DNA of 64,000 bases, taken from assembly GCF_000016345.1 (NCBI RefSeq), contig NC_009379.1, positions 1,612,001 through 1,676,000 of the forward strand. The letters are read 5' to 3'. Positions 40,332 to 60,981 of the stretch are shown piece by piece; within the stretch, counting starts at the first letter, position 1, and every line of letters starts with the position of its first letter. Position numbers and translations under genes: made by a program. The notes under the pieces are model-generated. The model saw only the letters and a list, made by a program, of their open reading frames with translations, was not told the DNA's origin and made no database searches. This stretch comes from Polynucleobacter asymbioticus QLW-P1DMWA-1. GTDB lineage: Bacteria; Pseudomonadota; Gammaproteobacteria; Burkholderiales; Burkholderiaceae.

Positions 40332-40360
40332 ATGTCATAAAAATGACATATAAGTGTCAT
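40332..40360 (+). promoter_or_regulatory. Triple Pho box upstream of the lysine-rich protein/ppk2 operon
   Basis: Three direct repeats with exact 11-bp pitch, ATGTCAT (40332), ATGACAT (40343) and GTGTCAT (40354), match the PhoB half-site CTGTCAT with its 4-bp spacer. Ten bases after the second repeat is TATACG, a possible -10. The start codon is at 40448, leaving a leader of roughly 75 nt. Confidence 0.75.
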
Positions 40361-40447
40361 ATACGCTTGAAAATAGAGCGATTAAAACGTAGGATTCGTG
40401 TATAGACGTATCAATACAACCATCTACAAGCTAACCTAGGAATAGTC

Positions 40448-40729
40448 ATGAGCCAAAAGAAAATAGTAAAACAGTTGTTTAAAAAGCTCGACAAATTAGA
40501 GTCTGACAGAGAAAAGCTGATCGACAAACTTGCTAAAGCATTGGATAAGCTAGAAAAAAAGGTTGCCACTAAAAAACCTCCTGCTAAAAAGTCTCCAGCA
40601 GCAAAAAAAGTTCCCGTGAAAAAAGCTGCAGCGAAAAAAGTTGTTGCAAAGAAGGCGCCCGCTAAGAAAGTGGCTGCTAAAAAGGTTGCGACTGAGAGTA
40701 AGCCAATTGGCAGTAGCGACGCTAGCTAA
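40448..40729 (+). CDS. Small lysine-rich, histone H1-like protein
   Basis: The 93-aa protein has an amphipathic N-terminal half (FKKLDKLESDREKLIDKLAK, coiled-coil-like) and a C-terminal tail (about residues 40-82) of repeated AAKK, PAKK and VAKK units. Such tails resemble histone H1 and AlgP/HctB-type DNA-compacting proteins, and the charge also suits binding of polyphosphate. It is co-transcribed with ppk2: its stop TAA shares a base with the ppk2 start (TAATG). AGGA lies 7 nt before its ATG. The link to polyphosphate is inference from the operon. Confidence 0.8.
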   Translation: MSQKKIVKQLFKKLDKLESDREKLIDKLAKALDKLEKKVATKKPPAKKSPAAKKVPVKKAAAKKVVAKKAPAKKVAAKKVATESKPIGSSDAS

Positions 40730-41502
40730 TGGGGAAAAAAGATCTCGTAAAGCTGGAATCCTCTAGCTATGACTCACAGCTCCGCTTATTACAAATAGAG
40801 CTAGTAAAACTTCAAAATAGCCTCATTAGTAAGGGTGATCAGATACTGGTCATCCTCGAGGGTCGTGATACTGCCGGTAAAGATGGCACCATTAAGACCA
40901 TTACTGAGCATTTGAGCCCACGAGAAACTCGGGTAGTTGCCCTAGGCAAGCCATCAGATGTCGAGTCTGCAGAATGGTACTTTCAGCGCTATGTCGCTGA
41001 ATTGCCTAAGAAAGGAGAGTTTGTTCTCTTCAATCGCAGCTGGTACAACCGAGCTGGCGTTGAGAAAGTAATGGGCTTTTGCACCAAACCTCAATACACA
41101 AACTTTATGGATACGGTTAATCCCTTTGAATCCATCCTAGTGAGCTCTGGTATCACCCTTCTGAAATACTATTTAGATATTTCTAAAAAAGAGCAGGCTG
41201 TTCGTCTTAAAGCTAGAGAAGATGACCCTCTGAAGCAATGGAAGATTAGCCCTATTGATCAACAGGCGCAGAAAAAATGGGATGCTTATAGCAAGTGTCG
41301 AAATGACATGCTACAAAATACCAGCCCAAAAGATGCGCCTTGGATAATCGTTAGAGCAAACGATAAAAAGCTGGCCCACCTCAATATGATCAGAGATCTT
41401 CTCTCTAGGGTTGACTACCCCGGTAAAGACAAAAGTCTACTTAAAGTTGATCAAGAGATCACCTTTAAGTGGGACGGGAAAATTTCAAGTCTAGAAAAAT
41501 AA
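40729..41502 (+). CDS. ppk2: Polyphosphate kinase 2 family protein (with Asn in Walker B)
   Basis: A 257-aa single-domain PPK2. The Walker A motif is GRDTAGKDG and the lid region is DDPLKQWKISPID. The Walker B region reads LFNRSWYNRAGVE, with Asn where the paralogue encoded immediately downstream has Asp (LFDRSWYNRAGVE). PPK2 enzymes move phosphate between polyphosphate and nucleotides. The Asn may alter metal binding, direction or substrate. It is translationally coupled to the lysine-rich protein and lies behind a triple Pho box. Confidence 0.88.
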   Translation: MGKKDLVKLESSSYDSQLRLLQIELVKLQNSLISKGDQILVILEGRDTAGKDGTIKTITEHLSPRETRVVALGKPSDVESAEWYFQRYVAELPKKGEFVLFNRSWYNRAGVEKVMGFCTKPQYTNFMDTVNPFESILVSSGITLLKYYLDISKKEQAVRLKAREDDPLKQWKISPIDQQAQKKWDAYSKCRNDMLQNTSPKDAPWIIVRANDKKLAHLNMIRDLLSRVDYPGKDKSLLKVDQEITFKWDGKISSLEK

Positions 41503-41506
41503 GGCT

Positions 41507-42412
41507 TTAGAAAACCTCAGGGACATACATCTCTGGAGGAACCGGTCCGCGTAGATAGTCTGGGTTATGCACGCGTTTAGGCAAAGTAATTACCGGATGA
41601 TCAATTTCTTGATACGGTATTTGATTCAGTAAATGGGTAATGCAGTTCAAACGCGCTTTTTTCTTATCATTTGCAGCAACAACCCACCATGGAGCCTCTG
41701 GAATAGACGTACGCTCAAGCATAGTTTCCTTGGCCTTGGTGTAAGCCTCCCAAAGCCTTCTAGCCTCTAAATCCATTGGGCTTAATTTCCATTGCTTCAA
41801 CGGATCATGAATACGCATCATGAAGCGGTTGTATTGCTCGTCATCTGAAATAGAGAACCAATACTTAATTAAGATAACTCCGGAACTAATCATCATTCGC
41901 TCAAGATCAGGAACCGTTCTTAAAAACTCTTCATATTCATAGTCAGTACAAAATCCCATGACCTTCTCAACCCCAGCACGGTTATACCAACTGCGATCAA
42001 ATAGAACGATTTCGCCACCGGCGGGCAAATGAGAAATATATCTTTGGAAATACCACTGAGTTTTCTCGCGCTCATTTGGAGCGGGCAAAGCCACGACCTT
42101 ACACACGCGGGGATTGAGTCGCTGAGTAATTCGCTTAATTGCCCCACCCTTACCAGCAGAATCTCGACCTTCAAATAGGACAGCAACCTTAAGTTTATTC
42201 TCGACCACCCAGTCTTGAAGCTTTACTAATTCGCCTTGAAGCCTAAACAGCTCTCGGAAGTAAACATTGCGTGGAATTTCTGACTGGCTGTCACCATCAG
42301 GCGTTAGGCGATCATCATCGAGCTCCATTTCAAGCTCTTCATCCATGCTATCCAGAATCTCTTCTTGAGCACGGCGATACCACTCGGCCATTTCCTTATG
42401 CTTTGATGTCAT
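41507..42412 (-). CDS. ppk2: Polyphosphate kinase 2
   Basis: The 301-aa protein has an acidic N-terminal extension (EELEMELDDDRLTPDGD), Walker A GRDSAGKGG and Walker B LFDRSWYNRAGVE, and lid DPLKQWKLSPMD. The canonical aspartate suggests an ordinary class I PPK2, probably making GTP or ATP from polyphosphate or the reverse. GGAAAG precedes the ATG closely. It is convergent with the other ppk2, with only 4 bp between stops. A candidate Pho box and -10 lie directly upstream. Confidence 0.92.
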   Translation of the reverse strand: MTSKHKEMAEWYRRAQEEILDSMDEELEMELDDDRLTPDGDSQSEIPRNVYFRELFRLQGELVKLQDWVVENKLKVAVLFEGRDSAGKGGAIKRITQRLNPRVCKVVALPAPNEREKTQWYFQRYISHLPAGGEIVLFDRSWYNRAGVEKVMGFCTDYEYEEFLRTVPDLERMMISSGVILIKYWFSISDDEQYNRFMMRIHDPLKQWKLSPMDLEARRLWEAYTKAKETMLERTSIPEAPWWVVAANDKKKARLNCITHLLNQIPYQEIDHPVITLPKRVHNPDYLRGPVPPEMYVPEVF

Positions 42413-42450
42413 AACTTTCCATTCCTAGGCAATATTTATAGCTAGGATAA

Positions 42451-42468
42451 ATGACAATTTTGTTACAT
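42451..42468 (-). promoter_or_regulatory. Candidate Pho box upstream of the second ppk2
   Basis: On the minus strand ATGTAAC (42468-42462) and TTGTCAT (42457-42451) sit at the 11-bp PhoB pitch. A gap of exactly 10 nt leads to TATAAA (42440-42435), a good -10, and the ppk2 ATG is at 42412. The first half-site is imperfect. Confidence 0.55.
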
Positions 42469-43230
42469 AAGGGGTTGATTACCTTTTAATTGCCCCAAAA
42501 TGGCCTCTTGACTGTATAGAGCCAACCATTTTCGATCCCTGGAAGCACTAGGGCTCGATCCAGAAGGAAGAATAAAGGTCAATTCGACCGTGAGCTTTCG
42601 ATGACTAAGGATGCTCGATATTGACTCCAGGAGCCCCATATCGCCTATAAATGCTGGGATGTCACTTCTTTCACCAGATTCTGCAGATTTATATGAGATT
42701 GCCAGGGAATACACTGGGACCTGAGCAATTACGGCCGCTTCAAATAAATTTGGCTTAAATGGAAGAACAGTCTCACCTACTGTAGATGTTCCTTCCGGAA
42801 AAATGCAGACTGATTGGGTTTTAAGCGCCTTAGCTACTTCGTTTGCAATGTACTTGCCATGGCGAGAGTTATTGCGATTGATAAAGATGGTTCCCAATTG
42901 TTTTGCCATCCAACCAAATACGGGCCATCCCTCCACCTCTGACTTAGCTACAAATCGAATGGGCTGAAATGCATTAATCGCATGTATGTCTACCCAAGAA
43001 ATATGGTTCGATGCCAGCAAAAATGGAGCGGCAGGCAATATGTCTGCCTTCTTTAGCCTTAATTCAATTCCCAGAATGGAAAGTAAATGGATGGACCAAT
43101 TTTGAATCAGCTTATTTTTTGTGGGTTGCCCTATGAAAGGAAATCGAAAGCAGAGCGTCGCTAAGCCGCCAAATACATGACTCCATACCCGCAACCAGTT
43201 AAATGCTTTAACTAAAGAATTCGCTTTCAT
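42463..43230 (-). CDS. PlsC-like 1-acylglycerol-3-phosphate acyltransferase
   Basis: A 255-aa acyltransferase with the catalytic NHISWVDIH (H-x4-D), the GTIFINRNN block and the FPEGTSTVGE substrate motif. An N-terminal hydrophobic stretch anchors it to the inner membrane. It makes phosphatidic acid or, as OlsA does, O-acylates a lyso-ornithine lipid. The neighbouring OlsB-like gene (45628) keeps the second option open. ATG 43230 is preferred over an upstream TTG (43242). It is divergent from the PlcP-like gene. Confidence 0.85.
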   Translation of the reverse strand: MKANSLVKAFNWLRVWSHVFGGLATLCFRFPFIGQPTKNKLIQNWSIHLLSILGIELRLKKADILPAAPFLLASNHISWVDIHAINAFQPIRFVAKSEVEGWPVFGWMAKQLGTIFINRNNSRHGKYIANEVAKALKTQSVCIFPEGTSTVGETVLPFKPNLFEAAVIAQVPVYSLAISYKSAESGERSDIPAFIGDMGLLESISSILSHRKLTVELTFILPSGSSPSASRDRKWLALYSQEAILGQLKGNQPLM

Positions 43231-43292
43231 ATTAAATGGCAATATAAATCAAGTTTCAAAAAAAATGATTGCGTCATCAAACTGACTTAGAA

Positions 43293-43310
43293 CTGTCATG
43301 CTACTTTCAT
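43293..43310 (+). promoter_or_regulatory. Pho box upstream of the PlcP-like operon
   Basis: CTGTCAT (43293-43299) and CTTTCAT (43304-43310) form a near-consensus PhoB box with 11-bp pitch. Ten bases later is CTTAAT (43321-43326), a 4/6 match to a -10. That would start the transcript about 2 nt before the ATG at 43335. Confidence 0.75.
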
Positions 43311-43334: not shown

Positions 43335-44144
43335 ATGATGCATTACAAAGCCATCTGGATTTCAGATATACACCTAGGAACATCAGGGTGTCAGGCAAAC
43401 TACCTTCTCGATTTCCTGAAACACAATGAAGCCGACAAGTTTTATCTAGTAGGCGACATTATTGATGGCTGGAGATTGAAAAAATCTTTCTACTGGCCTC
43501 AATCACATAACGACGTTGTACAAAAACTATTACGTAAAGCGCGTAAGGGTAGCGAAGTGATCTACATCCCTGGAAATCATGATGAAAGTGCTCGGCAGTT
43601 TTTTGGTCTTTCATTTGGTGACGTCAAAGTAGAAGAAGATGTCATTCATACGACTGTAGACGGTAGGCGCCTTTGGGTAACACATGGTGATCAGTTTGAT
43701 GGTGTGATGCAATATGCCAAATGGTTGGCATACGTTGGTGATACTTTGTATTCCTTCATTTTGTATGTCAATCGCTATTTCAATATGCTGCGCGTCAAGA
43801 TGGGGTTGCAGTACTGGTCCTTATCGCAATACCTTAAGCATCAAGTAAAAAATGCCGTGAGCTATATCGCAGACTTTGAGCACATCATGGCGAGAGAAGC
43901 CCGCCTACGAGGTTGTGATGGTGTAGTTTGCGGACATATTCACAAAGCAGAAATTCGTGAAATAGATGGTCTTTTGTATTGCAACGATGGTGATTGGGTG
44001 GAAAGCCTAACAGCCCTTGTTGAAACACATACCGGCGAACTCAAAATTATTCACTGGACACACATCAAGGGTGAGCCAGAAGATATCCCCCAAATCACCC
44101 TTCAACCTGGTATTGAATCACTTATCAAAGAGGCTGTGCTATGA
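43335..44144 (+). CDS. plcP: PlcP-type phospholipase C, metallophosphoesterase (LpxH-like fold)
   Basis: A 269-aa calcineurin-type metallophosphoesterase with SDIHLG, GDIIDGW, GNHDES, HGDQFD and GHIH. It is longer than LpxH, and features such as FYWPQSHNDVVQKLLRKARK and GLQYWSLSQYLK match my memory of PlcP, the enzyme that removes phospholipid head groups under phosphate starvation to give diacylglycerol. A Pho box lies upstream, and the gene overlaps a glycosyltransferase gene by 4 bp, the known plcP-agt pairing. No Shine-Dalgarno sequence is visible. LpxH itself is the main alternative. Confidence 0.78.
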   Translation: MMHYKAIWISDIHLGTSGCQANYLLDFLKHNEADKFYLVGDIIDGWRLKKSFYWPQSHNDVVQKLLRKARKGSEVIYIPGNHDESARQFFGLSFGDVKVEEDVIHTTVDGRRLWVTHGDQFDGVMQYAKWLAYVGDTLYSFILYVNRYFNMLRVKMGLQYWSLSQYLKHQVKNAVSYIADFEHIMAREARLRGCDGVVCGHIHKAEIREIDGLLYCNDGDWVESLTALVETHTGELKIIHWTHIKGEPEDIPQITLQPGIESLIKEAVL

Positions 44145-45169
44145 AAATTATGATCATCACTGATGCATGGGACCCACAGGTTAATGGTGTCGTACGAACA
44201 CTTAAACAAACCCGTGCTGAATTAACCGCAATGGGTCATGAAGTGGAAATGATTACCCCTACTGGTTTTAAATCAATTCCTTGCCCAACCTATCCAGATA
44301 TCGCCCTTTCACTTTTTCCTGGCAAAGAGGTGGCAAGACGCATTAAAGAATTTGCTCCTGATGCTATGCATATAGCTACTGAGGGGCCGCTTGGTTTATC
44401 AGCTCGTGCCTATGCAGTAAAAAACAACTTACCTTTTTCTACTGCTTATCACACTCGCTTTCCCGAATATGTCAAAGCCCGCACTGGAATCCCACTTGCA
44501 ATTACCTATGCGTTTATTCGCTGGTTTCATGGTCCATCAATGGCGGTCATGGCACCAACTATTGTTGTCAAGAATGATCTTGAAGAGTATGGCCTCAAGA
44601 ATGTAGTGCTTTGGTCAAGAGGTGTTGATCTTGATATTTTTAAAATTCAAGACTCCAAAGCACTAAACACTGCGCATCCCATTTTCTTATACGTGGGGCG
44701 TGTTGCCGTTGAAAAGAATATCAATGCATTTTTAGAAATTGAATTGCCAGGTTCTAAATGGGTAGTAGGCGATGGTCCGGCAATGGCTGCTATCAAAGAA
44801 AAATACCCTGAAGTAAATTATTTGGGCGTACTTCAACAACATGAACTAGCAAAAGTGTATGCAGCCGCAGATGTATTTGTATTTCCAAGCAAAACAGATA
44901 CATTTGGCCTGGTTTTACTTGAAGCAATGGCATGCGGCACACCAGTGGCGGCATATCCGGTCACCGGCCCTATCGATGTTTTGGGCCACTCTAATGCCGG
45001 AGCGATGAATGAAGATTTGCGTGAAGCTTGTATGCAGGCTTTAAAAATTCCTCGCGAAGTAGCGCGCGCCCATGCAGAGAAATTCTCCTGGAGAGCTGCT
45101 TCAGTACAGTTTGCAGATCACCTCAAGCCAGTATCGACACCAGAAGTGCATGTTACTGCGCTAGCCTAA
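44141..45169 (+). CDS. GT4 family glycosyltransferase, probable diacylglycerol glycosyltransferase (Agt-like)
   Basis: A 342-aa GT-B glycosyltransferase. The N-terminal TDAWDPQVNGVVRTLKQT is the acceptor-side motif of diacylglycerol and phosphatidylinositol-type transferases. The donor-binding site is in FVFPSKTDTFGLVLLEAMACGTPV (second Glu of E-x7-E nearby). It is translationally coupled to the PlcP-like gene (ATGA). By analogy with the plcP-agt system it would glycosylate diacylglycerol to build a phosphorus-free membrane lipid. The sugar donor is unknown. Confidence 0.8.
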   Translation: MKIMIITDAWDPQVNGVVRTLKQTRAELTAMGHEVEMITPTGFKSIPCPTYPDIALSLFPGKEVARRIKEFAPDAMHIATEGPLGLSARAYAVKNNLPFSTAYHTRFPEYVKARTGIPLAITYAFIRWFHGPSMAVMAPTIVVKNDLEEYGLKNVVLWSRGVDLDIFKIQDSKALNTAHPIFLYVGRVAVEKNINAFLEIELPGSKWVVGDGPAMAAIKEKYPEVNYLGVLQQHELAKVYAAADVFVFPSKTDTFGLVLLEAMACGTPVAAYPVTGPIDVLGHSNAGAMNEDLREACMQALKIPREVARAHAEKFSWRAASVQFADHLKPVSTPEVHVTALA

Positions 45170-45181
45170 GGAAGCTTGTAC

Positions 45182-45586
45182 ATGAACTCCCCGTATCACA
45201 TAGACCAAAATCCCCACAAGGGAAACCGAGGTCTAGCAAGGGCCTGGCATGCTGCCAAAAATTCTTGGTGCGGTTTAGTTTATGCATTCTTGGAAGAGAG
45301 CGCCTTCAGGCAAGAGCTCACCTTATTTGTATTGCTTACTCCAATTGCTATCCTCCTACCCATTAGCTTATTAGAGAAAGCCCTTCTCATTTCTTCACTC
45401 ATGATGGTTCTGGTTATTGAACTACTTAATTCGAGCGTTGAAGCAGCTATCGATCGTATTTCTTTTGAGCATCACGACCTTTCTAAACGAGCCAAAGATT
45501 TTGGTAGTGCCGCTGTGATGCTTGCCCTATTTGTGGCAGCCCTCATCTGGGCTGCTGTCTGCATCCCCATGGTTTTCAAGGTCTAA
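45182..45586 (+). CDS. dgkA: Diacylglycerol kinase
   Basis: A 134-aa integral membrane DgkA with the catalytic segment ELLNSSVEAAIDR followed by HHDLSKRAKDFGSAAVML and three membrane helices. It phosphorylates diacylglycerol to phosphatidic acid. I start at ATG 45182, with AAGGAAG about 8 nt upstream; a TTG two codons earlier is too close to that site. It is 12 bp after the glycosyltransferase gene, so it would compete for or recycle the diacylglycerol released by the PlcP-like enzyme. Confidence 0.92.
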   Translation: MNSPYHIDQNPHKGNRGLARAWHAAKNSWCGLVYAFLEESAFRQELTLFVLLTPIAILLPISLLEKALLISSLMMVLVIELLNSSVEAAIDRISFEHHDLSKRAKDFGSAAVMLALFVAALIWAAVCIPMVFKV

Positions 45587-45627
45587 ATGCATTCCGCTGA
45601 GAAAACATTCACTACACGAGGCTAGCT

Positions 45628-46551
45628 ATGTCTGATATCCCTAATCCAATTGGTTCATTTGAGATTTTCACACCCAAGAAAGTCAAACCATTCAAAAAAA
45701 GTAAATCAAACACACTTAAAAAACTCTCCAAAAAAGTTGCCAAGAAGCTCTTTGGGAAAAAGTTTGTTACCAAAACAAGGGCTGAATTAAGAGAAGTTGA
45801 TCCAAGCCCTGCTATTCAAATTGCCAAGCCTAAGAAAGCTGCATTTCAGATTATTTGGGCAAGCACGCCAGGCGAAATCAAAGAAGCTCAAAGACTGCGT
45901 TATAAAGTATTTGCCGAAGAGATGGGCGCTAATTTACCTAGCAATGCTGACGGCTTAGATGTAGATGAATTCGATTCCTATTGTGACCATTTATTAATTC
46001 GTGATCAAGATAGTCTTAAGGTAGTTGGAACCTATCGCGTGCTCCCTCCCCATAAAGCAAAAGAGATCGGACGCCTCTATTCTGATTCTGAGTTTGATCT
46101 ATCTCGCATTGATCATTTGCGCCCTAAATTGGTTGAATTAGGCAGATCTTGCGTACATCAAGACTATCGCTCGGGAGCGGTCATTATGGCGCTATGGAGC
46201 GGTCTGGCTCAATACATGCAAAAAAATGATTATGAAATCATGCTAGGTTGCGCTAGCATCCCCATGGCCGATGGCGGTCACTTTGCAGCGAGTTTATATA
46301 ACTCACTAGGCAATGATCAGATGGCACCAACAGAATTCCATGCTTTTCCACGACTGCCTTTGCCGTTGGATAGATTAAATGGAGGACTTGAGGTGCAGCC
46401 TCCTCCGCTGATCAAAGGTTATTTAAAGCTTGGTGCAAAAATCTGCAGCGCTCCAGCATGGGATCCAGACTTTAATACTGCTGATTTATTAACGATGCTG
46501 CGTCTATCAGAAATTAATCCGCGTTACGCAAAGCATTTTTTAGGAATGTAA
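45628..46551 (+). CDS. OlsB-like GNAT N-acyltransferase
   Basis: The 307-aa protein has a lysine-rich N-terminal extension of about 70 residues (FKKSKSNTLKKLSKKVAKKL). An Acetyltransf_5/OlsB-type domain follows with RLRYKVFAEEMGA, VGTYRVLPP, LVELGRSCVHQDYRSG and GCASIPM. OlsB joins a 3-hydroxyacyl group to ornithine, the first step of ornithine lipid synthesis. GAGG lies 6 nt before the ATG. In a phosphate-stress lipid operon it would supply a second phosphorus-free lipid. The true amine acceptor is unproven. Confidence 0.78.
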   Translation: MSDIPNPIGSFEIFTPKKVKPFKKSKSNTLKKLSKKVAKKLFGKKFVTKTRAELREVDPSPAIQIAKPKKAAFQIIWASTPGEIKEAQRLRYKVFAEEMGANLPSNADGLDVDEFDSYCDHLLIRDQDSLKVVGTYRVLPPHKAKEIGRLYSDSEFDLSRIDHLRPKLVELGRSCVHQDYRSGAVIMALWSGLAQYMQKNDYEIMLGCASIPMADGGHFAASLYNSLGNDQMAPTEFHAFPRLPLPLDRLNGGLEVQPPPLIKGYLKLGAKICSAPAWDPDFNTADLLTMLRLSEINPRYAKHFLGM

Positions 46552-46607: not shown

Positions 46608-48182
46608 CTACTTAAAGCTCACTTGGTAAGAGCGGCCGATTCTGTCCCACTCTGCTGCTTCTTTTAAGAGGCTAAACTCTGTCAATGGATGTTTGGCAGC
46701 CCATTCCTTAGAGAGACTTACGAGATAAGAGCCATCGTGCTCGGATACTTTTACCTTAGGAAAGTTGGTGTCATTTCTACCACGGCAAAGCACTTGAGCC
46801 AGACGCAAACAAAACAACATGCGCCAGTCTTCAAAGCTGTGATTGTTTGCTAGCTTTCCTAGCTTACCTGTATGCCCAATTAAGAGTGCAGCCAATCTAG
46901 CTTGGTCATTCTTAGAGAAGCCGGGCATATCTGCATTACCTGCGATATAGGCTGAATGCTTGTGATAGCCATTATGAGAAATCGATAAACCGATTTCATG
47001 TAAATTAGCTGCCCACTGCAATAGAGCAACATTATCCGCCCTGCTCTCTGATTCGGGCTTGGGAAGTTGTTGTAAAAACTCTGTAGCCAATTTACTCACT
47101 CTATCAGCTTGCTCTCGATCTACCGTGTAGCGCTGCATGAATTGTTCTACAGTGACATAACGCATGTCATGATGCTGCGATCTTCCAAGCAAATCGTAAA
47201 GTACACCACTTCGTAAAGCAGCATCGGTTACTTCCATTTCTTCAATACCTAATTCATCGAATGCCGCCAGCATAATAGCCAAGCCACCAGGCCATACCGA
47301 TCTTCGATCGTCTTTCAAGCCAATCAACTCAACTTGATTAACATGCTCATACTTGAGTAAATGTTTCTTGAGATTCTTAAGGCCTTCACGGGTAATCAAG
47401 CCGCTCGCGCCATTGACGCGACCCATAGTCAAGCCATCACCAAGCCCATTGAAGTTGTTATTGGCAATCAGATCTGCCAAAGCCCTAGCCGTTCCAGATG
47501 AGCCGATGACTTGATTCCAACCACTCTTTAAGTATGCCCCTGAAATCACTTGTATTTCACGACGAGCGGCTAACTCAGCCTCTTTGAAGGCATGCGTATC
47601 AATATTTCCCTTAGGGAAAAAACTTAGGCTATGTGATACACATCCAATATAAAGGCTCTCCATAAGCTTTGGCTCGTAACCTTTGCCGATAATAAATTCG
47701 GTGGAGCCGCCGCCAATGTCAATCACCAATCTATTGCCTTGAACAGCTGGTACCTCATGTGCTGCTCCAATGTAAATGAGGCGCGCCTCTTCAACGCCAG
47801 CAATCACTTCAATAGGAAATCCCAGAGCCTCTTCTGCATCAGCAACAAATTGCTGGGCATTCTTAGCAACGCGCAAGGTATTGGTAGCTACCGCCCGAAC
47901 ATTAGCAGGATCAAATCCACGTATTCGTTCACCAAAGCGCCTAATAGCAATAAGTCCTCGTTGGTATGCATCGTTACCAAGGAGTTTATTTTCAGTCAGG
48001 CCGGCCGCAAGGCGAACTGACTCACGCAAGGTATCTATCGGGCGAAGTTGAGTGCCCGATGGTGTATTTATTGCCTGCGCTACAAGCATCCGAAAGCTAT
48101 TGGATCCCAAATCAACCGCAGCCACTAGGTTTGCGGAATTAGTTATAGGATCTGCGGGATTGCTGGCCAAAATATTCCCCAA
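46608..48182 (-). CDS. ppx: Exopolyphosphatase, Ppx/GppA family
   Basis: At 524 aa it has the length of full Ppx. The actin-fold phosphate motifs VAAVDLGSNSFRMLVAQ and NRLVIDIGGGSTEFIIG are intact, and the C-terminal half has an HD-like helical region (LHEIGLSISHNGYHKH). It removes terminal phosphates from polyphosphate, or from pppGpp if it is GppA. A weak Pho box lies upstream. It sits in the same neighbourhood as two ppk2 genes and the pst-pho operon. Confidence 0.92.
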   Translation of the reverse strand: MGNILASNPADPITNSANLVAAVDLGSNSFRMLVAQAINTPSGTQLRPIDTLRESVRLAAGLTENKLLGNDAYQRGLIAIRRFGERIRGFDPANVRAVATNTLRVAKNAQQFVADAEEALGFPIEVIAGVEEARLIYIGAAHEVPAVQGNRLVIDIGGGSTEFIIGKGYEPKLMESLYIGCVSHSLSFFPKGNIDTHAFKEAELAARREIQVISGAYLKSGWNQVIGSSGTARALADLIANNNFNGLGDGLTMGRVNGASGLITREGLKNLKKHLLKYEHVNQVELIGLKDDRRSVWPGGLAIMLAAFDELGIEEMEVTDAALRSGVLYDLLGRSQHHDMRYVTVEQFMQRYTVDREQADRVSKLATEFLQQLPKPESESRADNVALLQWAANLHEIGLSISHNGYHKHSAYIAGNADMPGFSKNDQARLAALLIGHTGKLGKLANNHSFEDWRMLFCLRLAQVLCRGRNDTNFPKVKVSEHDGSYLVSLSKEWAAKHPLTEFSLLKEAAEWDRIGRSYQVSFK

Positions 48183-48214: not shown

Positions 48215-48232
48215 ATGTAAAAACCATGACAC
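48215..48232 (-). promoter_or_regulatory. Weak candidate Pho box upstream of ppx
   Basis: On the minus strand GTGTCAT (48232-48226) and TTTACAT (48221-48215) keep the 11-bp pitch. The second half matches CTGTCAT at only four positions. A gap of 10 nt is followed by TAATTG, a poor -10. Confidence 0.35.
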
Positions 48233-48280
48233 ATTGATGAAATCAGCAACTAGCCTATGTGGCTGGGGTGACGCTCTCTA

Positions 48281-52553: not shown

Positions 52554-52606
52554 CGACTTCCTCACAAGGTTTTAGCTAATCTTAACTCCTTCCTAGGGGT
52601 TTTGAT

Positions 52607-53128: not shown

Positions 53129-53305
53129 CTATGCAACTTCTTCAAGGCGTAGAGAGAATCTAGTGTCCACAATAAATTGAGGTTTATGCAAATCATTCGA
53201 TGGGTGACGCACTGTTAATTTTGATTCGATGGATTCGTATATTGCTTGATCGATAGTAGTATTTCTCAACGCTGAAGAGATATATTTAGCGAGATTTTCA
53301 TTCAT
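53129..53305 (-). CDS. Small 58-aa protein of unknown function
   Basis: ATG 53305 opens a 58-codon frame beginning MNENLAKYISSALRNTTIDQ and ending FSLRLEEVA. AGGAAG lies 11 nt upstream. It precedes the second arsC-like gene by 18 bp on the same strand and could be co-transcribed. No signal peptide, membrane helix or known motif is visible. It is a plausible small gene in an otherwise empty 430-bp gap. Confidence 0.45.
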   Translation of the reverse strand: MNENLAKYISSALRNTTIDQAIYESIESKLTVRHPSNDLHKPQFIVDTRFSLRLEEVA

Positions 53306-53386
53306 AGTTATTTCAACTTCCTTTATAGGTATATGAAACTAATCTTATTCTTGCTATATGTAAGATTTATTAATAAATGAAGAAAA

Positions 53387-53409
53387 AAAGCCCAGCAGAA
53401 CCGGGCTTT
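53387..53409 (-). terminator. Orphan terminator-like hairpin
   Basis: AAAGCCC / GGGCTTT (7 bp) with a 9-nt loop is followed by a run of T on the minus strand. No annotated minus-strand gene ends immediately upstream. The rest of 53306-53542 holds only the upstream region of the short mgtC-like gene. Confidence 0.6.
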
Positions 53410-53542
53410 AAAAGAAGATTTGAAACATTTTACTTGGCCGGCATTTAATCCAGCGCACTTAGATTACTGAAAGGATGTGTCAAATTAATGACTCTGATAT
53501 ACACTGAAACAACAAAATATTGGATTTTATAAAGGAATTGGT

Positions 53543-54096: not shown

Positions 54097-54303
54097 ATGA
54101 ATATGAGTAAATATCTATATGAAGATGCTGTAAAGCAATTACAAGAGACGGGCAGTATTGGTTTAGCGGACTTAAAAAACTTACCTCATGAAGAGCTAGT
54201 GGAGCTGTTCGAGGAAATCAAGGTTTGGTGTCTTTACGCTAACGGTAAAGCCGATAAGTTACCCAAAGAATCCAAGAAGAAAAAGAAAAAGAAAAAGGAT
54301 TAA
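54097..54303 (+). CDS. Small protein with polylysine tail
   Basis: A 68-aa protein: a predicted helical body (LYEDAVKQLQETGSIGLADL, then LPHEELVELFEEIKVWCLYA) and a terminal KESKKKKKKKKD tail. The acid-serine-lysine tail resembles polyphosphate-binding PASK clusters. The first ATG (54097) or the second (54103) could be the start; neither has a strong ribosome site. Its stop codon overlaps that of convergent phoR by 3 bases. Function unknown. Confidence 0.65.
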   Translation: MNMSKYLYEDAVKQLQETGSIGLADLKNLPHEELVELFEEIKVWCLYANGKADKLPKESKKKKKKKKD

Positions 54304-55598
54304 GCGGCAATCCGCTCTTTAGGGAATCGCAACATAAACTGACTGCCCTTCCCAGGAGTGCTTTCTATTAGGAGTTGAGCCTGGTGCCTATTGGCAATAT
54401 GCTTAACAATAGCCAAGCCCAATCCCGTTCCACCCGTATCTCTTGAGCGACTTCTGTCTACGCGATAGAAACGCTCCGTAAGCCGAGATAAATGCTCTGA
54501 TGCAATACCGGGGCCAGAGTCTGTTACTAAAAACTCACCTTGCCCCTGATCATTCACCCTCCATTCCACGCGAATTGCGCCAACGTCAGGGGTATAGCGA
54601 ATCGCATTGGATACGAGATTGCTAAATGCCGAAAGAATCTCTCTCTCATCTCCCATTAAATTCTGAGGCGATTCCAGATCAAAATTGAGCGCGTGCTTTC
54701 CTTGAGAGAGTGCCTCAGCATCATTCTTCAGAAGCGCCATCAAGGTTTCCACTTTCACTACCGTATTGGCGGCAGGTAAAGCATTTGACTCTAGATTAGC
54801 CAAAGTTAACAAATCCTCAACCAAGCTTTTCATTCTTTGCGCTTGAGCCATCATCATGTCGAAGTATTGATCTTGCTGTTCCTTCTTCAGATCAAGTGAA
54901 TGAACTGTCTCCAGAAAGCCCATCAATACGGTAATTGGTGTGCGCATTTCATGAGAAACATTGGCTACGAAATCGCGACGCATAGCATCGGCTTTTTGCA
55001 AATCGGTAATATCTTGCACCAAAAGAAGGTGACGCTTTTGACCAAATGGGAAAGCTTGCAACATCAAACTCAAGTTTCCATGGGGTCCCATGCGCTCCAT
55101 TAATAGGGGCTCATCAAAATTGCGCTTATTCAGATACTGAATAAATTCAGGTCGTCTAATTAAAAAATTAATTCGCTGCATCACATCACGTTTGAATATG
55201 AGCCCAAAGTATTGTTCCGCAATATCGTTGCACCATTCAATTTGATCGCTATCATCGAGCATTAATATGCCATTAGGTGAGACTTGGAATGCCTCTATAA
55301 AGTGATCATGTTGCCGCTCAATACTGCGAATTCTCTGTTTCAGATTTCTGACTAAACGCTGAAGCCTAAAAAATACTTCCTCCCAAAAGCCACTCGGTAA
55401 GGGCATATTTTCAACAGAATCAGCAAGAATATATTTTCTAAGGCGCGCTAAGTTAATGTAGGAATAAACAAGCGGTATAGAGAGTACTGAAATTCCCGCT
55501 GCAATACCCCACTCTGGTCCCCAAAAGGACATTACCGTAAACGCAGCAATAAAGCCGATGCAGATAATGAGAGAAAATCGGGTTAGCGCTGATAACAT
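54300..55598 (-). CDS. phoR: Phosphate regulon sensor histidine kinase
   Basis: The 432-aa kinase has two N-terminal membrane helices (about 5-25, 30-48), a PAS domain (about 97-195), a HisKA motif with phospho-acceptor H216 in VSHEMRTPI, and an HATPase domain with N-box NLVSNAIRY and G-boxes DSGPGI and GGTGLGL. It phosphorylates PhoB when phosphate is scarce. It is the last gene of pstSCAB-phoU-phoB-phoR. Confidence 0.95.
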   Translation of the reverse strand: MLSALTRFSLIICIGFIAAFTVMSFWGPEWGIAAGISVLSIPLVYSYINLARLRKYILADSVENMPLPSGFWEEVFFRLQRLVRNLKQRIRSIERQHDHFIEAFQVSPNGILMLDDSDQIEWCNDIAEQYFGLIFKRDVMQRINFLIRRPEFIQYLNKRNFDEPLLMERMGPHGNLSLMLQAFPFGQKRHLLLVQDITDLQKADAMRRDFVANVSHEMRTPITVLMGFLETVHSLDLKKEQQDQYFDMMMAQAQRMKSLVEDLLTLANLESNALPAANTVVKVETLMALLKNDAEALSQGKHALNFDLESPQNLMGDEREILSAFSNLVSNAIRYTPDVGAIRVEWRVNDQGQGEFLVTDSGPGIASEHLSRLTERFYRVDRSRSRDTGGTGLGLAIVKHIANRHQAQLLIESTPGKGSQFMLRFPKERIAA

Positions 55599-55663
55599 GC
55601 TGCCATATTAGAGCATCTCCAAAGAATCATAAAAATTCCCAGAAAATGTAGCCTAATGAAGAC

Positions 55664-56377
55664 TTAAGTTTGGGTTGGAGTCTTAGTAATACGATAACCG
55701 CTGCCACGAACGGTTTCTATATAGCGGTCACAATCAAACGGGACTAGAGCAGCTCGTAAACGCTTGATATGAACGTCTACTGTTCTTTCTTCAATATAGA
55801 CCTCACTACCCCAAACCTTATCCAATAAACTGGCGCGCGAGTGAACGCGCTCAGGGTTGGCCATGAAAAACTGAAGCAAACGAAACTCGGTTGGCCCTAA
55901 AGCAATAGCTTTAGACTCGGCATTGGGCCATGTAGCCAAAACACGATGAGAACTCGGATCTAATTTAAGTGGGCCAACAGTAAGTGGGCCAGTATCTTCG
56001 ATAGGCATCTGTCTACGCAACATTGCCCTCACTCGCGCTACTAATTCTTTAGGTGAAAATGGTTTGGTGACATAGTCATCTGCGCCAGAGTCAAGACCCA
56101 GAACCTTATCTGACTCTTCGCTTTTGGCTGTCAACATCAAAATAGGTAAGGCCTTGGTTCTTTCGTTAGAGCGAAGCTCCTTTGCAAACTGAACTCCAGA
56201 CTTTCCAGGCAACATCCAATCCAGAATAATCATATTAGGCAATTGATCTTTCATCATTGCCGATGCGATATCCGTTTGCATTGCTTTTTCGACTTTATAC
56301 CCTGCATGTGTCAAATTAATCGCAATCAATTCTGCAATTGATGGCTCATCCTCAACTATGAGTATGCGGTGAGTCAT
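55664..56377 (-). CDS. phoB: Phosphate regulon response regulator
   Basis: A 237-aa OmpR-class regulator. The receiver domain has phosphorylation site D53 (ILDWMLPGKSG) and the conserved TAKSEESDKVLGLDSGADDY; the C-terminal winged helix has VDVHIKRLRAAL and RGSGYRI. It binds Pho boxes such as those listed at 40332, 43293, 51079 and 60964. It follows phoU by 15 bp. Confidence 0.95.
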   Translation of the reverse strand: MTHRILIVEDEPSIAELIAINLTHAGYKVEKAMQTDIASAMMKDQLPNMIILDWMLPGKSGVQFAKELRSNERTKALPILMLTAKSEESDKVLGLDSGADDYVTKPFSPKELVARVRAMLRRQMPIEDTGPLTVGPLKLDPSSHRVLATWPNAESKAIALGPTEFRLLQFFMANPERVHSRASLLDKVWGSEVYIEERTVDVHIKRLRAALVPFDCDRYIETVRGSGYRITKTPTQT

Positions 56378-56392
56378 TATTAGACGCTCCGA

Positions 56393-57100
56393 TTATGGTC
56401 TATTGGCTTCACGAACTAAATCTTCATGCGGTAGGTGACGTACATCAGCACCCTTAGCAATGTAGATCACAAACTCTGCAATATTCTTAGCATGATCACC
56501 GATACGTTCAATTGCTTTGGCGATCGTCAGCATATCAAGACCAGTAGTAATTAAATGGGGGTCTTCAGACATATAGGTAATGAGCTTACGTACAAAACCC
56601 CTAAATTCTTCATCAATCTGACGGTCTTCTTCAACTACTTCAGCAGCTGCAATCGTATCTAAGCGGGCGAATGCATCAAGACTGCGGCGCAAGAGTGAAA
56701 TAGCCATCTGACCCGACAAACGAATTTCTGCAACGTTGATGTTATTTGGTAAGCCAGACTCTATTAGGCGTTTTGTACGTTTAGCCACCCTTTCAGCCTC
56801 ATCACCAGCACGCTCTAAATTAGTAATCGCTTTGGATACCGCCATCACAAGTCGTAAATCTCGCGCTGTTGGCTGTCTGCGCGCAATTAATTCCGTGCAA
56901 GCCAAATCAATCTGTATCTCAAGATCGTTTACTAATTTTTCATTTTCGATCACGACATTGCAAGTATCAATATCCATTTGCGTAAATGCACGCATCGCTG
57001 TAGCAATTTGTGACTCCACAAGACCGCCCATTTCAAGCAAGCGGCTTGAAAGTGAATTTAAATCGGCATCGAATTGTGATGATAAGTGTTTATCTGGCAT
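56393..57100 (-). CDS. phoU: Phosphate transport regulator PhoU
   Basis: A 235-aa two-repeat helical PhoU protein with the metal-binding E/D-x3-D patterns (NLERAGDEAERVAK and AIERIGDHAKNIAE). ATG 57100, with GGAG 6 nt upstream, is preferred over TTG 57112. PhoU links the Pst transporter to PhoR and limits phosphate uptake. It follows pstB within the operon. Confidence 0.95.
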   Translation of the reverse strand: MPDKHLSSQFDADLNSLSSRLLEMGGLVESQIATAMRAFTQMDIDTCNVVIENEKLVNDLEIQIDLACTELIARRQPTARDLRLVMAVSKAITNLERAGDEAERVAKRTKRLIESGLPNNINVAEIRLSGQMAISLLRRSLDAFARLDTIAAAEVVEEDRQIDEEFRGFVRKLITYMSEDPHLITTGLDMLTIAKAIERIGDHAKNIAEFVIYIAKGADVRHLPHEDLVREANRP

Positions 57101-57112
57101 TAATGTCTCCAA

Positions 57113-57901
57113 TTAACCGAAGCGGCCGGTAATATAGTCTTCTGTTTCTTTACGCTTAGGCTTAATAAATATTTCGTCCGTTTTGCCATACTCAATTAGG
57201 CTACCCAAATACATATAGGCCGTATAGTCCGAAACGCGAGCAGCTTGCTGCATATTATGAGTCACAATAGCAATGGTGTATTCATTCTTGAGTTCATGGA
57301 TCAACTCTTCAACTTTTCCAGTTGAAATAGGATCTAGAGCTGAGGTTGGCTCATCTAACAAGATCACGGAAGGTTTCACAGCTACACCCCGTGCAATACA
57401 CAGGCGCTGTTGTTGACCACCAGAGAGTGATAAACCGCTCTGATTCAACTTATCCTTCACTTCATTCCAAAGAGCGGCCTTATTTAATGCCCACTCTACG
57501 CGCTCATCCATTTCAGAGCGGGAGAGCTTTTCATAAAGACGAACTCCAAAAGCAATGTTTTCGTAAATAGACATTGGGAATGGAGTTGGTTTTTGAAAAA
57601 CCATCCCTATTCTTGATCGCAACAAGTTCAAGTCTTGGCCTGGCTCTAGAATGTTCTGACCATAAAAATTGATCTCGCCTTCTGCGCGTTGCCCTGGATA
57701 GAGGTCATACATTCGATTGAGTGTTCTGAGCAGTGTTGATTTTCCGCAACCAGATGGGCCAATGAATGCAGTCACCTTGCCTTGCTCAATATCTAAGTTG
57801 ATCTTTTTTAGACCCTGAAAGGCGCCATAATAAAAATTAAGGTCACGCACTTCAATGGCGTTCACTACCGAATTCTTCGGCTCTTGGCTTACTGTATCCA
57901 T
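57113..57901 (-). CDS. pstB: Phosphate ABC transporter ATP-binding protein
   Basis: A 262-aa ABC ATPase. Walker A is GPSGCGKST, the signature is LSGGQQQR and Walker B is [13 protein letters not shown] start at ATG 57901 because AAGGAG lies 5 nt upstream; a frame 20 codons longer overlaps pstA but lacks such a site. It powers the Pst phosphate importer. Confidence 0.94.
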
Positions 57902-57957
57902 TCTTACTCCTTGACTATCAATCTTATTTAAGTCAAACATTGTTTTCATATTGCTCA

Positions 57958-58824
57958 TCATCCCTGTACCTTCTCTCTAAACACCACGCGAGCTAAGATA
58001 TTTAAGCCAAGCACAGCAAATGTAATCAGAAGGGATCCGCCCCAGGCCAGACTGACCCAGTTATCGTATGGACTCATGGCGAACTGAAAAATAACCACCG
58101 GCAAGTTAGCCATGGGCTTATTCATATCCGTTGAGAAGAACTGATTGCTCAAGGCTGTGAAAAGCAAAGGCGCAGTTTCACCACTCACTCGAGCTAATGC
58201 CAATAGGATTCCCGTCATGATGCCGCTTTGCGCTGCGCGCAAGGTAACCATAAAGGCCACCTTCCATTTTGGAGTGCCTAATGCATAAGCAGCCTCCCTC
58301 AAACTTCCAGGAACCAAGCGCAACATATTTTCAGTAGTACGGACAACCACAGGAATAGCGATTAAAGCCAATGCCACAGTGCCCGCCCAGCCAGAGAAAT
58401 GCTGAACCTTCGCAACATATAAGGCGTAAACAAACAGGCCTATCACAATAGAGGGAGCGGAAAGCATGATGTCAGTTACAAAGCGGGTAAGAGAGGCAAC
58501 TTTACTGCGATCGCCATACTCAGAAAGATATAAACCAGCTAACACACCTACAGGCGTGCTAATAAAAGTGCATGAGCCAACCAATAAGAGACTTCCCACG
58601 ATAGCATTGGCTAAACCACCGCCTTCAGTACCTGGAGCAGGAGTGCTCGCAGTAAACATATTCAAATTAATTGCAGAAAATCCTTTAATAAAAAGGATGC
58701 TTAAAATCCAAATAAGGCTAGCCATACCGATAGCCATAGCCAACATGGAAAGAGCAAGGCCAATTTTATTTACTCTTTTACGACGAGCAAATACAGCCAT
58801 GTCAAAATTATTAGACACACTCAT
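57958..58824 (-). CDS. pstA: Phosphate ABC transporter permease PstA
   Basis: A 288-aa inner-membrane permease with about six helices and the [22 protein letters not shown] coupling-loop region (EAA motif). It overlaps pstC by 4 bp (ATGA). Together with PstC it forms the phosphate channel. Confidence 0.94.
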
Positions 58825-59807
58825 GATTTCAGCCCTTGTTTTTTCTCCATGCTAATTAACAACCATTTAGCAAGGGCCAACACCACAAATGTAATAAAAA
58901 ATAAGGCAAGGCCTAGAGCAAAAAGAGATGAGTAATGTAAACCTACCTCTGCTTCGCCAAATTGATTTGCCAGGGTGGATGCTATAGAGCTACCTGGAGC
59001 AAAAAGGGAAGGGGAAATTCGTTGTGCGTTACCAATGACAAAAGTAACTGCCATGGTTTCTCCAAGCGCCCTACCTAAACCTAACATCACCCCACCAATG
59101 ACCCCTGCCTTTGTATAAGGCAGAACAATATTTCGGACTACTTCCCATGTTGTGCAGCCAATTCCATAGGCCGATTCTTTAAGAACTGGTGGAACAATCT
59201 CGAATACATCGCGCATGACCGAAGAAATAAAAGGCAAAATCATGAGAGCAAGAATCAATCCCGCACACAACATACCAATGCCATTAGGTGCCCCTGAAAA
59301 TAAAATTCCAATTAGGGGAATTTGACCCAGGGTAGCCTGAAGAGCAGGCTCAATATAGTCGCCAAATATAGGCGCAAAGACAAATAAACCAAACATGCCA
59401 TAAATGATGGATGGCACAGCGGCCAATAACTCAACAGCTGTTCCAAGAGGGCGTCTGAGAGGTGGGGGACAAATTTCTGTTAAGAAAAAAGCAATGCCAA
59501 AACTTAGTGGGACAGCAATTAAGAGTGCAATTACTGAAGAAACTAATGTTCCATAAATTGCGATCAAACCACCGAACTCTCCATTCACAATATCCCAGGT
59601 AGGAGTAATAAAAAATTGGGGGCCGAACTCTTTTAATGCAGGCCATGCATTAATAAATAAAGAGCCAATAATTCCTAGTAACGCAAACAATACCGATAGA
59701 GAAAAAAATTGCGTAATGCGATGAAATAGAAAATCTTGAATTCTCTGGAGTCGCGCAATTTTTGAAGCCATTAGCGTTGGAGCACTGGTAGTCTCTAAAG
59801 CATTCAT
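58821..59807 (-). CDS. pstC: Phosphate ABC transporter permease PstC
   Basis: A 328-aa permease with an N-terminal helix plus the six-helix core and the EAA-like loop [20 protein letters not shown]. It lies downstream of pstS across a 72-bp gap that contains a strong hairpin, which probably lowers its expression relative to the binding protein. Confidence 0.94.
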
Positions 59808-59829
59808 TCTATGGATATCTTAAGTAGAA

Positions 59830-59854
59830 AACGACCCTGATTAACAGGGTCGTT
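59830..59854 (-). terminator. Hairpin between pstS and pstC (attenuator or mRNA stabiliser)
   Basis: AACGACCCTG / CAGGGTCGTT is a perfect 10-bp stem with loop ATTAA, 25 bp after the pstS stop. It is followed on the minus strand by TTTTC. Such hairpins after binding-protein genes protect or partly terminate the transcript, so PstS exceeds the permease subunits. Confidence 0.75.
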
Positions 59855-59879
59855 CAAATCTGAAAAATTAGAACAGAAA

Positions 59880-60902
59880 TTATTTAGTCTCAACTTGTGA
59901 CCAAACTTGCTTCCGAATGTAATCTACGGTTGCGTCAGGCATTGGGACGTAATCTAAGTCTGAGGCGGCTTTCTTACCATCTTTGAATGAATAATCAAAG
60001 AATTTCAATACTGCTGCAGCTTGAGATTTATTTTCTGGCTTTTTATAAACTACAACGAAAGTTGCGCCTGTAATTGGCCATGCTTTAGCACCTTTAGCAT
60101 ATGTAATAAAAGTATTCATTCCAGGAAATTTAGACCAGTCTGTACCGGCAGAGGCGGCAGCGAAAGCTTCTGCAGTTGGAGATACTATTACGCCATCAGC
60201 ATTGCGAACCTGTGTATAGCTCAGGTTATTCTTTTTAGCATAAGCATACTCAACATAACCAATTGAGTTCTTGATGCGTGCAACGTTAGCCGCAACGCCT
60301 TCGTTTCCTTTGCCACTTACAGTAGAAGCTGCAGGCCATTTAACTTGCGCACCAAAGCCAACCGCATCTTTAAAGTTGCTACTTGCTTTAGAAAGGAAGC
60401 TAGTAAAAATTGCAGTAGTACCAGATCCGTCTGCACGAGTTACAACTGTGATCGGACCAGATGGGATCTTCATGCCTGGATTTAGGAGAGCTACGCGTTT
60501 GTCGCTCCAGTCTGTTACAGAACCTTGGAAAATATCTGACAAAAGGTCACCAGAGAGCTTCAACTGGTTTGGGCCAATACCTTCGATGTTAACAACTGGA
60601 ACTACGCCGCCAATAATTGCTGGAAACTGAACCATGCCATTACTTTGTAAGTCTTCAAAACTTAATGGTGCATCAGTAGCACCAAAATCAACTGTTTTAG
60701 CTTTAATCTGTTTAATACCGCCTCCAGAACCTATGGACTGGTAATTCAGGCTGTCACCGCTTTTAGCTTTATATGATTCAGCCCACTTACTTAATACTGG
60801 ATAAATAAAAGAGGATCCAGCACCAGTCATTTCTACAGCAAATGCGGTAGGAGCAAGTGAAATAGCGCCAATAATCAGGGCTTTTTTCAAAAAAGATTTC
60901 AT
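59880..60902 (-). CDS. pstS: Phosphate-binding protein PstS
   Basis: A 340-aa periplasmic phosphate receptor with a signal peptide ending PTAFA. The mature start is VEMTGAGSSFIYPVLSKW, and phosphate contacts lie in GSGGGIKQ, FGATDAPLS and RADGSGTTAIFTSFL. First gene of pst-pho, behind a consensus-like Pho box. Confidence 0.95.
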   Translation of the reverse strand: MKSFLKKALIIGAISLAPTAFAVEMTGAGSSFIYPVLSKWAESYKAKSGDSLNYQSIGSGGGIKQIKAKTVDFGATDAPLSFEDLQSNGMVQFPAIIGGVVPVVNIEGIGPNQLKLSGDLLSDIFQGSVTDWSDKRVALLNPGMKIPSGPITVVTRADGSGTTAIFTSFLSKASSNFKDAVGFGAQVKWPAASTVSGKGNEGVAANVARIKNSIGYVEYAYAKKNNLSYTQVRNADGVIVSPTAEAFAAASAGTDWSKFPGMNTFITYAKGAKAWPITGATFVVVYKKPENKSQAAAVLKFFDYSFKDGKKAASDLDYVPMPDATVDYIRKQVWSQVETK

Positions 60903-60963
60903 TTAATCGGTCCTTGAATGGAATATGCGCAATAGCGCGATACAAGGACGATACGGGTCGAAT

Positions 60964-60981
60964 ATGACAGCTCTATGACAC
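60964..60981 (-). promoter_or_regulatory. Pho box of the pst-pho operon
   Basis: On the minus strand GTGTCAT (60981-60975) and CTGTCAT (60970-60964) form a nearly perfect PhoB box with 11-bp pitch. TATCGT (60953-60948) follows after exactly 10 nt as the -10. Confidence 0.85.

Follow-up and report, generated by a model that had tools for sequence, protein, structure and literature searches.

A predicted PhoB-controlled phosphate-starvation island in Polynucleobacter asymbioticus and a candidate small RNA within it

Introduction

Do the phosphate-related genes that lie side by side in the genome of Polynucleobacter asymbioticus QLW-P1DMWA-1 belong to one regulated programme, or are they neighbors by descent and chance? 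The genome is a single contig (NC_009379.1) of 2,159,490 bases, and the window that we analyzed is a 64,000-nucleotide stretch of it (bases 1612001–1676000). Between window positions 40,332 and 60,981, a sequence-only reading had described a phosphate-stress island that combines a pst-pho operon, phoA, ppx, two ppk2 genes, a set of lipid genes, and two mgtC genes with six candidate binding sites for PhoB (Pho boxes) of identical geometry. In the E. coli-type Pho regulon, PhoR-PhoB acts on 11-bp direct repeats of TGTCAT, the box lies 10 bp before the −10 hexamer, and pst and phoA are among the targets.

We assign a probability of about 0.87 to the reading of this block as a PhoB-controlled phosphate-starvation island, judged from sequence and comparative data. 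Nearly all strong predicted phosphate-starvation switches of the genome sit in a single block of 20 kb, and the genus as a whole conserves it. This global stress regulon, elsewhere usually scattered, would here be inherited as a single block by a freshwater genus whose genomes are small, and this consolidation lets the gain or loss of phosphate-saving functions (ppk1, phoA, ppk2a, ars) be read directly.

Results and discussion

Pho boxes are concentrated in one block

All six boxes are present, each with the 11-bp repeat pitch attributed to it (Table 1). The earlier reading had placed most of them 10 nt before a −10 hexamer, and such a hexamer lies at exactly this distance downstream of five of the six; summed over all six boxes, the match to TATAAT reaches 24 at offset 10, and no other offset in the range 4–21 exceeds 16. 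The block has tandem TGTCAT-like half-sites of 11-bp pitch in promoters, the box-N10-(−10) arrangement, and both phoB and phoR.

Searching the whole genome for TGTCAT-N5-TGTCAT with at most one mismatch returned 13 places, compared with 2 for a reversed-pattern control. These 13 places represent 11 distinct sites: five are in the island, all of them intergenic, and the other six all fall within open reading frames (ORFs). At the rate seen outside, the island would be expected to hold 0.058 sites, giving a Poisson P of 5e-9 for five or more in 20,650 bp, an enrichment over the genome background. With up to two mismatches, the consensus occurs at 175 places (96 in the control) and is uninformative genome-wide, so the ppk2b box at 42451 needed the support of conservation and of a matrix. 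This matrix, which covers the box plus the −10 hexamer, was trained on relatives with the tested gene left out and was compared against 20 stretches of 20 kb (a 400-kb genome sample). No sample site was as good as the ppx box, and one each equaled the ppk2b, phoA, and pstS boxes. The box of the gene encoding a histone H1-like protein (H1), which precedes ppk2a, was equaled by three sites with the −10 hexamer included and by none as a bare 17-mer.

Boxes are conserved across the genus

We surveyed the best 80 of 97 confirmed genus loci, counting only genes whose start and at least 150 bp of upstream sequence lie inside the locus. An upstream box at ≤2 mismatches was found for ppk2b in 65 of 71 cases, with the first half-site often TGTAAT, as well as for plcP (73/79), ppx (58/69), phoA (28/32), and H1 (10/11). 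For these five genes, the fractions obtained with eight altered control motifs were 0.00 at ≤1 mismatch and 0.01–0.03 at ≤2. The ppk2a row was left out because paralogue cross-matches mix ppk2a with ppk2b. The pstS box occurs at ≤2 mismatches in 27 of 30 loci, a count that includes the window's own locus and one second-copy pstS; the distance from these boxes to the start is 73–79 bp in nearly all cases and 89 bp in two, and a TATCGT-like hexamer is conserved at a spacing of 10 nt. No surveyed genus locus has a box at this threshold upstream of agt, phoR, phoB, phoU, or the DUF2252 gene. Among relatives, the −10 match is best at offset 10 for ppk2b, phoA, and pstS; for ppx, plcP, and H1 it is not, and there the register may be blurred by alternative half-sites. 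For mgtC1, the phoA promoter is the only possible box-driven source of transcription.

Two further candidates were set aside. The best box before olsB in the window has four mismatches and was rejected, though olsB has a box of its own at ≤2 mismatches in 33 of 77 relatives (L042–L121), often with N10 and a TACGAT-like hexamer. A box before olsA, which has two mismatches in 15 of 75 relatives and is nowhere better, was not counted.

A model for the programme

The roles of PlcP, Agt, DgkA, and OlsB/OlsA in lipid metabolism are established family knowledge. In the model that we propose, low phosphate would activate PhoR-PhoB, and phosphorylated PhoB would bind the tandem TGTCAT repeats, which replace the −35 region 10 nt before the −10 hexamer. 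PhoB would then switch on Pst uptake and alkaline phosphatase. PlcP would break down phospholipid and free diacylglycerol, which DgkA would recycle, and a glycolipid made by Agt together with an ornithine lipid made by OlsA/OlsB would replace the phospholipid. The polyphosphate (polyP) enzymes Ppx and PPK2 would also be switched on. In a subset of species that includes the window's, the same box geometry precedes a small terminator-ended RNA that would probably act by pairing.

Box conservation gives good support to a single predicted Pho programme that takes in uptake, ester hydrolysis, lipid replacement, and polyP enzymes, and to this extent the earlier claim of one programme stands; mgtC2, which has no box, and a promoter outside the island fall beyond it. 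Its polyP part likewise holds for the enzymes, with conserved boxes at ppx, ppk2b, and H1-ppk2a, and not for turnover as a whole: PPK1 is absent, PPK2 and Ppx remain, and PPK2 may either make or consume polyP here.

Pho-type sites beyond the island

Requiring the composite pattern box-N10-TANNNT at ≤1 mismatch left five places in the genome. Three are island promoters, one falls within a long reading frame, and one is the promoter of a NUDIX gene. At ≤2 mismatches there were 26 places, compared with 11 in the control. The NUDIX site scores 19.8, like the island boxes, and is the sole match above 17 in the 400-kb sample. Its 10-nt spacing is kept in five of five aligned genomes, which were picked because the box matches there. 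The predicted regulon is therefore larger than the island. A weaker outside candidate, before a gene 17 kb past pstS, scores 9.0 and is equaled by 31 sample matches.

Across 32 genomes there are 21 exact boxes. Ten are at island or second-pst positions, and one of these lies inside a 127-amino acid frame, about 0.5 kb before the second pstS. Four belong to the NUDIX promoter, read on the opposite strand, and one lies before arsR; five are intragenic and one is at the join of two other genes. Two genomes (G014 and G076) carry second pstS copies no more than 9 kb from arsR genes, and exact Pho boxes occur in the vicinity.

A genus trait that extends an older family core

PlcP was matched in 95 of 101 genus genomes, our own included, at E ≤ 0.001, two of them (G026 and G041) by weak matches of 22–24% only. 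Gene order was taken from all 31 single-contig relatives among these genomes. In 29 of the 31, plcP and pstS lie within one span of 11.3–19.6 kb, and plcP-agt, olsB, ppx, and phoR-phoB-phoU-pstBACS follow a constant order in all 29. The two exceptions are G026, without plcP, and G017, with broken remnants only. Within the sample, plcP, olsA, and phoA are each split into two frames in G023 (L320), dgkA was not called in L297, L305, and L319, and olsA falls outside the stretch taken for L300. In G017 (L321), where the island genes are broken, the plcP and pstS remnants lie within 1.6 kb of one another; here the island is decayed in place. The slot between ppx and phoR is variable and holds phoA, mgtC1, DUF2252, arsC2, mgtC2, CorA, or, in four lineages, ppk1; PPK1 was not found in 28 of 32 genus genomes.

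Outside the genus, phoB was found in 16 of 19 genomes of the family, and 15 of these loci were examined. The genes olsB-ppx-ppk1-phoRBU-pst occur together in 12 of the 15, and much of the clustering is by this comparison an older family trait. In 19 family genomes, agt adjoins plcP in 17 and dgkA does so in 13, and no ppx, ols, or ppk2 genes were found in the flanks of plcP (about 10 kb on each side; one contig, L240, is shorter); pst/pho matches in these flanks are weak and generic only. A box at ≤2 mismatches lies upstream of plcP in 7 of the 19, compared with 0–1 of 19 for eight control motifs. Since the family has both the olsB-to-pst cluster and a separate plcP unit, the genus joined two older Pho-type units.

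Alternative explanations

Several points weigh against reading the block as a PhoB-controlled island. The H1 box lacks a −10 hexamer at 10 nt (2 of 6 bases match there), and the plcP box is weak by the matrix, with 4 equally good sample sites and 33 as a bare 17-mer. No box precedes mgtC2 in the window or in any of 22 relatives at ≤2 mismatches. The loci behind the conservation counts come from related species, and the counts are not independent events. Agt falls below its NCBIfam cut-off, and PlcP is named from fold and context, its matches to curated families being weak and LpxH-like. Finally, the idea that the whole regulon lies inside the island was rejected because the NUDIX promoter scores like the island boxes. 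The clustering could also be ancestral synteny plus chance neighbors, with only pst, plcP, and phoA regulated by PhoB and the remaining boxes as decoys. The family cluster described above (12/15 loci) fits this idea, and part of PMC10294691 describes many transcriptionally inert intragenic PhoB sites in E. coli. The island boxes, however, are in promoters, and their position is conserved at ppk2b and ppx too; in relatives, ppk2b but not ppx has its best −10 match at the 10-nt spacing. In addition, none of the 19 family genomes examined has plcP close to ppx or ols genes, so its join to them is derived. We consider the decoy explanation improbable.

The TGTCAT repeats might instead serve another regulator, such as ArsR, encoded at the left edge of the island. 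Such a repeat (TGTCAT-N5-TGTMAT-like; window 40256–40272, minus strand) does accompany arsR. It also lies just ahead of arsR where ars genes are found outside the island: among 18 such loci of the best 30 (L252–L254, L256–L260, L262–L269, L271, and L272), it has ≤1 mismatch in 9, 2 in 6, 3 in 2, and 4 in 1, so that 15 of 18 are at ≤2 mismatches, 33–35 bp before the arsR start (44 bp in one case), compared with 0–1 of 18 for control motifs. Yet the boxes at pstS, phoA, ppx, and plcP mark classic Pho targets, and three loci that carry H1-ppk2a and in which no arsR was found (L042, L044, and L054) keep the box. ArsR, moreover, has a palindrome of its own, ATATATTTCTATAT, which abuts the repeat and is itself next to the arsR ATG. 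These observations make control of the island boxes by ArsR or its like very improbable and favor PhoB. The arsR repeat was not counted as a Pho box, since it stands 9 rather than 10 nt from a TATAAT that abuts the start codon; joint control of arsenic efflux by PhoB and ArsR is possible from this layout.

A candidate small RNA between mgtC2 and arsC2

The island appears to encode a previously undescribed small RNA (sRNA), a candidate for Pho control (Table 1). In the window, its degenerate box has a matrix score of 14.9, which three sites of the 400-kb sample equal. We aligned 17 sequences, the window's included, and chose the structure from those same sequences. All six pairs of the 5′ stem are changed on both sides in at least one sequence each, and the two helices together show eight covarying pairs against a shuffle mean of 2.3; 95.4% of alignment cells pair, compared with 24.7–51.6% when the alignment is slid. 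The window's copy pairs one base out of register. Sequences in the resulting covariance model match it by construction, and it also recovers two loci absent from its training (L058 and L068), both with box, N10, and hexamer. Across 186 genus genomes, the model gives 40 matches at E ≤ 0.01. The 22 matches that reach at least 49 bits, among which the window's scores lowest, and one more at 39.6 bits are neighbors of island genes, and all 23 of these strong homologues have a box with 1–3 mismatches exactly 10 nt before a TANNNT hexamer; the in-register boxes of L356 and L357 and the RNA of L370 were identified separately from the main inspection of homologues. Seven of the 17 weaker matches were inspected and have neither box nor island neighbors, and the 34 family loci searched gave no match at E ≤ 1. 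Five members folded one by one gave uneven results, with z between −0.6 and −4.3, and the lowest-energy fold of L079 lacks the 5′ hairpin.

No Rfam family matched at threshold over window positions 38–62.7 kb. The closest to the sRNA is RF02278, at 21.2 bits against a threshold of 50, short of membership; seven relatives likewise gave no over-threshold match to RF02278. The sequence shows a promoter-like element and a terminator, and the candidate may be a trans-acting sRNA of the Hfq type. A coding role was considered in a by-eye check, in which short reading frames were not conserved. Ahead of the terminator, the CU-rich stretch (CUUCCUUU, ACCUCCUUUU) is similar to the end of 16S rRNA, and pairing with ribosome-binding sites is for that reason a reasonable guess.

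Downstream of the terminator, 31 of 32 loci retain a variant box at ≤3 mismatches, compared with a mean of 0.1 of 32 for shuffled patterns; these loci were also the source of the pattern. It is the only box evidence for arsC2-DUF2252. The element at 53383–53460 could be an attenuated leader of the operon formed by a small ORF, arsC2, and DUF2252 rather than an independent sRNA, as it lies on the operon strand, directly upstream, and ends in a terminator. Against a leader, the variant box is a second conserved promoter-like element that separates the terminator from the small ORF, no conserved competing antiterminator fold was seen in a by-eye check, and three sRNA loci (L348, L365, and L366) have no arsC2 within 1.5 kb. 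We therefore hold the leader doubtful, with the independent sRNA ahead of it. The fuller proposal, of a new family of PhoB-activated RNAs of about 75 nt that have a covarying 5′ hairpin, a CU-rich stretch similar to an anti-Shine-Dalgarno sequence, and a terminator and that repress translation of selected mRNAs in phosphate starvation, together with a new Pho-associated small protein beside arsC2, has in our judgment an even chance of being right. If so, the phosphate programme would gain a post-transcriptional layer of control through a conserved RNA with a Pho-type promoter.

A frame of about 30 amino acids (MKK...WQAWxEARxxYxxRYxxHxLGS-like) is found repeatedly upstream of arsC2. In loci that have the sRNA box (L042, L043, and L104), the frame stops just short of it; L050, L065, L074, and L075 have the frame, and the sRNA was not found there.

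Relation to known systems

The island consists mostly of known parts of a PhoB-type regulon; their consolidation is unusual, and the RNA candidate is new. It shares with the E. coli-type regulon PhoR-PhoB, the 11-bp TGTCAT repeats, the −10 spacing, and the pst and phoA targets. It differs in that five of five near-perfect intergenic boxes (≤1 mismatch) are packed into 20 kb and in that the targets include PPK2 and membrane-lipid genes. The order of its right half is that of the Burkholderiaceae olsB-ppx-ppk1-phoR-phoB-phoU-pstBACS cluster, with a variable slot in place of ppk1 and with plcP-agt-dgkA, olsA, and ppk2b added.

In marine heterotrophs, plcP beside a glycosyltransferase gene (agt) with a predicted Pho box is described in part of PMC4796936, and both the adjacency and the box are found here. 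In our freshwater betaproteobacterium, the pair is joined to dgkA, olsB, olsA, and the pst-pho operon; the main text of PMC4796936 does not mention Burkholderia, betaproteobacteria, freshwater, or diacylglycerol kinase. Part of PMC9239181 presents AlgP of Pseudomonas as a histone H1-like polyP-granule protein linked to PPK biology. The pairing of an H1-like protein with PPK2 recalls this lysine/alanine/proline-rich basic protein; the predicted protein here differs in having 93 residues and in being encoded directly before ppk2a under a Pho box.

RF02278, the Betaproteobacteria toxic sRNA (bdhR1; part of PMC11722255 covers the related S17S), is likewise a short terminator-ended RNA whose CU-rich stretch can base-pair with ribosome-binding sites, but our candidate is sub-threshold and has a Pho-like promoter. 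A PhoB-induced sRNA is mentioned for E. coli in a passage of PMC8829014, and the idea of a PhoB-regulated sRNA is therefore not new; an exact-phrase literature search on PhoB-regulated sRNAs returned no match. In searches combining Polynucleobacter with phosphate starvation, polyphosphate kinase, or Pho terms, no title or start of an abstract among the matches listed (25 of 385 for one of the searches) describes the island, most subscription papers lying outside the search. The main text of a published P. asymbioticus transcriptome/proteome study does not mention PhoB or pst.

Gene content of the island

Genes were called with Pfam and NCBIfam profiles on the window proteins, and the profiles bear out the gene list of the sequence-only reading. 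TIGR03707 matches over its cut-off support two PPK2 proteins, and there is profile support for the metallophosphoesterase, GT4, DgkA, OlsB-like GNAT, Ppx, two MgtC, alkaline phosphatase, PhoR, PhoB, PhoU, and PstS; the pstB/A/C positions are occupied by an ABC ATPase and two permeases.

Table 1. Features of the island and related Pho-type sites (window coordinates unless a contig is given)
Feature	Position	Strand	Evidence or remark
pstS Pho box, perfect, TGTCATAGAGCTGTCAT, N10, TATCGT	60964..60980	-	
phoA(-mgtC1) Pho box	51079..51095	-	
ppx Pho box, TTTCATCAATGTGTCAT, N10, TAAAAT	48226..48242	-	best pair within the site first placed at 48215
plcP tandem Pho half-sites, three to four; N10, CTTAAT	43272..43310	+	best pair 43294-43310
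ppk2b Pho box, TGTAACAAAATTGTCAT, N10, TATAAA	42451..42467	-	2 mismatches to TGTCATN5TGTCAT; overlaps last bases of olsA
H1-ppk2a Pho half-sites, three	40333..40360	+	
NUDIX-gene Pho-type promoter, outside the island	G000:C1:1041140-1041172	-	L323; composite pattern and matrix
Pho-like box of the candidate sRNA, 3 mismatches, N10, TAATCT (53461-53466)	53477..53493	-	stronger in most relatives
Candidate sRNA, 78 nt: 5′ hairpin, CU-rich stretch, GC-rich terminator hairpin, T run	53383..53460	-	between mgtC2 and arsC2
Variant box TTAATNAAANTGAAAT-N10-TANNAT	53342..53374	-	conserved; between terminator and small ORF
Small ORF before arsC2, 58 aa, unannotated	53129..53305	-	conserved; ends ...FLVDRKYxLRLDEII-like
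pstS-pstC-pstA-pstB-phoU-phoB-phoR, single gene string with one box	54300..60902	-	order kept in 29/29 island-bearing relatives
arsC2 (second arsenate-reductase-like gene, 52607-53110) and DUF2252 gene	51123..53110	-	profiles
phoA, alkaline phosphatase	49282..51057	-	PF00245
mgtC1, 17 nt downstream of phoA	48548..49264	-	PF02308
ppx	46608..48182	-	PF02541
plcP-agt-dgkA-olsB string, predicted lipid remodelling	43335..46551	+	profiles; plcP-agt-dgkA in best 20/20 out-of-genus loci
olsA-like acyltransferase, divergent from plcP	42463..43242	-	PF01553
ppk2b	41507..42412	-	TIGR03707 over cut-off
Lysine-rich H1-like gene (40448-40729) and ppk2a, one-base overlap	40448..41502	+	HC2 match below cut-off; PPK2
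arsR-arsC-acr3 operon, left edge of island	38383..40273	-	profiles

PlcP, Agt, OlsA, and OlsB are predicted identities, drawn from fold, sub-cut-off family matches, and neighborhood. The best NCBIfam matches of the OlsA and OlsB candidates are OlsA (lyso-ornithine lipid O-acyltransferase) and OlsB themselves, below the cut-offs at 124.6 of 300 and 173.2 of 350. The small ORF before arsC2 has no Pfam match. The first reading had not named the olsA-like gene, the adjoining arsR-arsC-acr3 operon, arsC2, the DUF2252 gene, or the H1-like gene, all of which the present gene calls supply.

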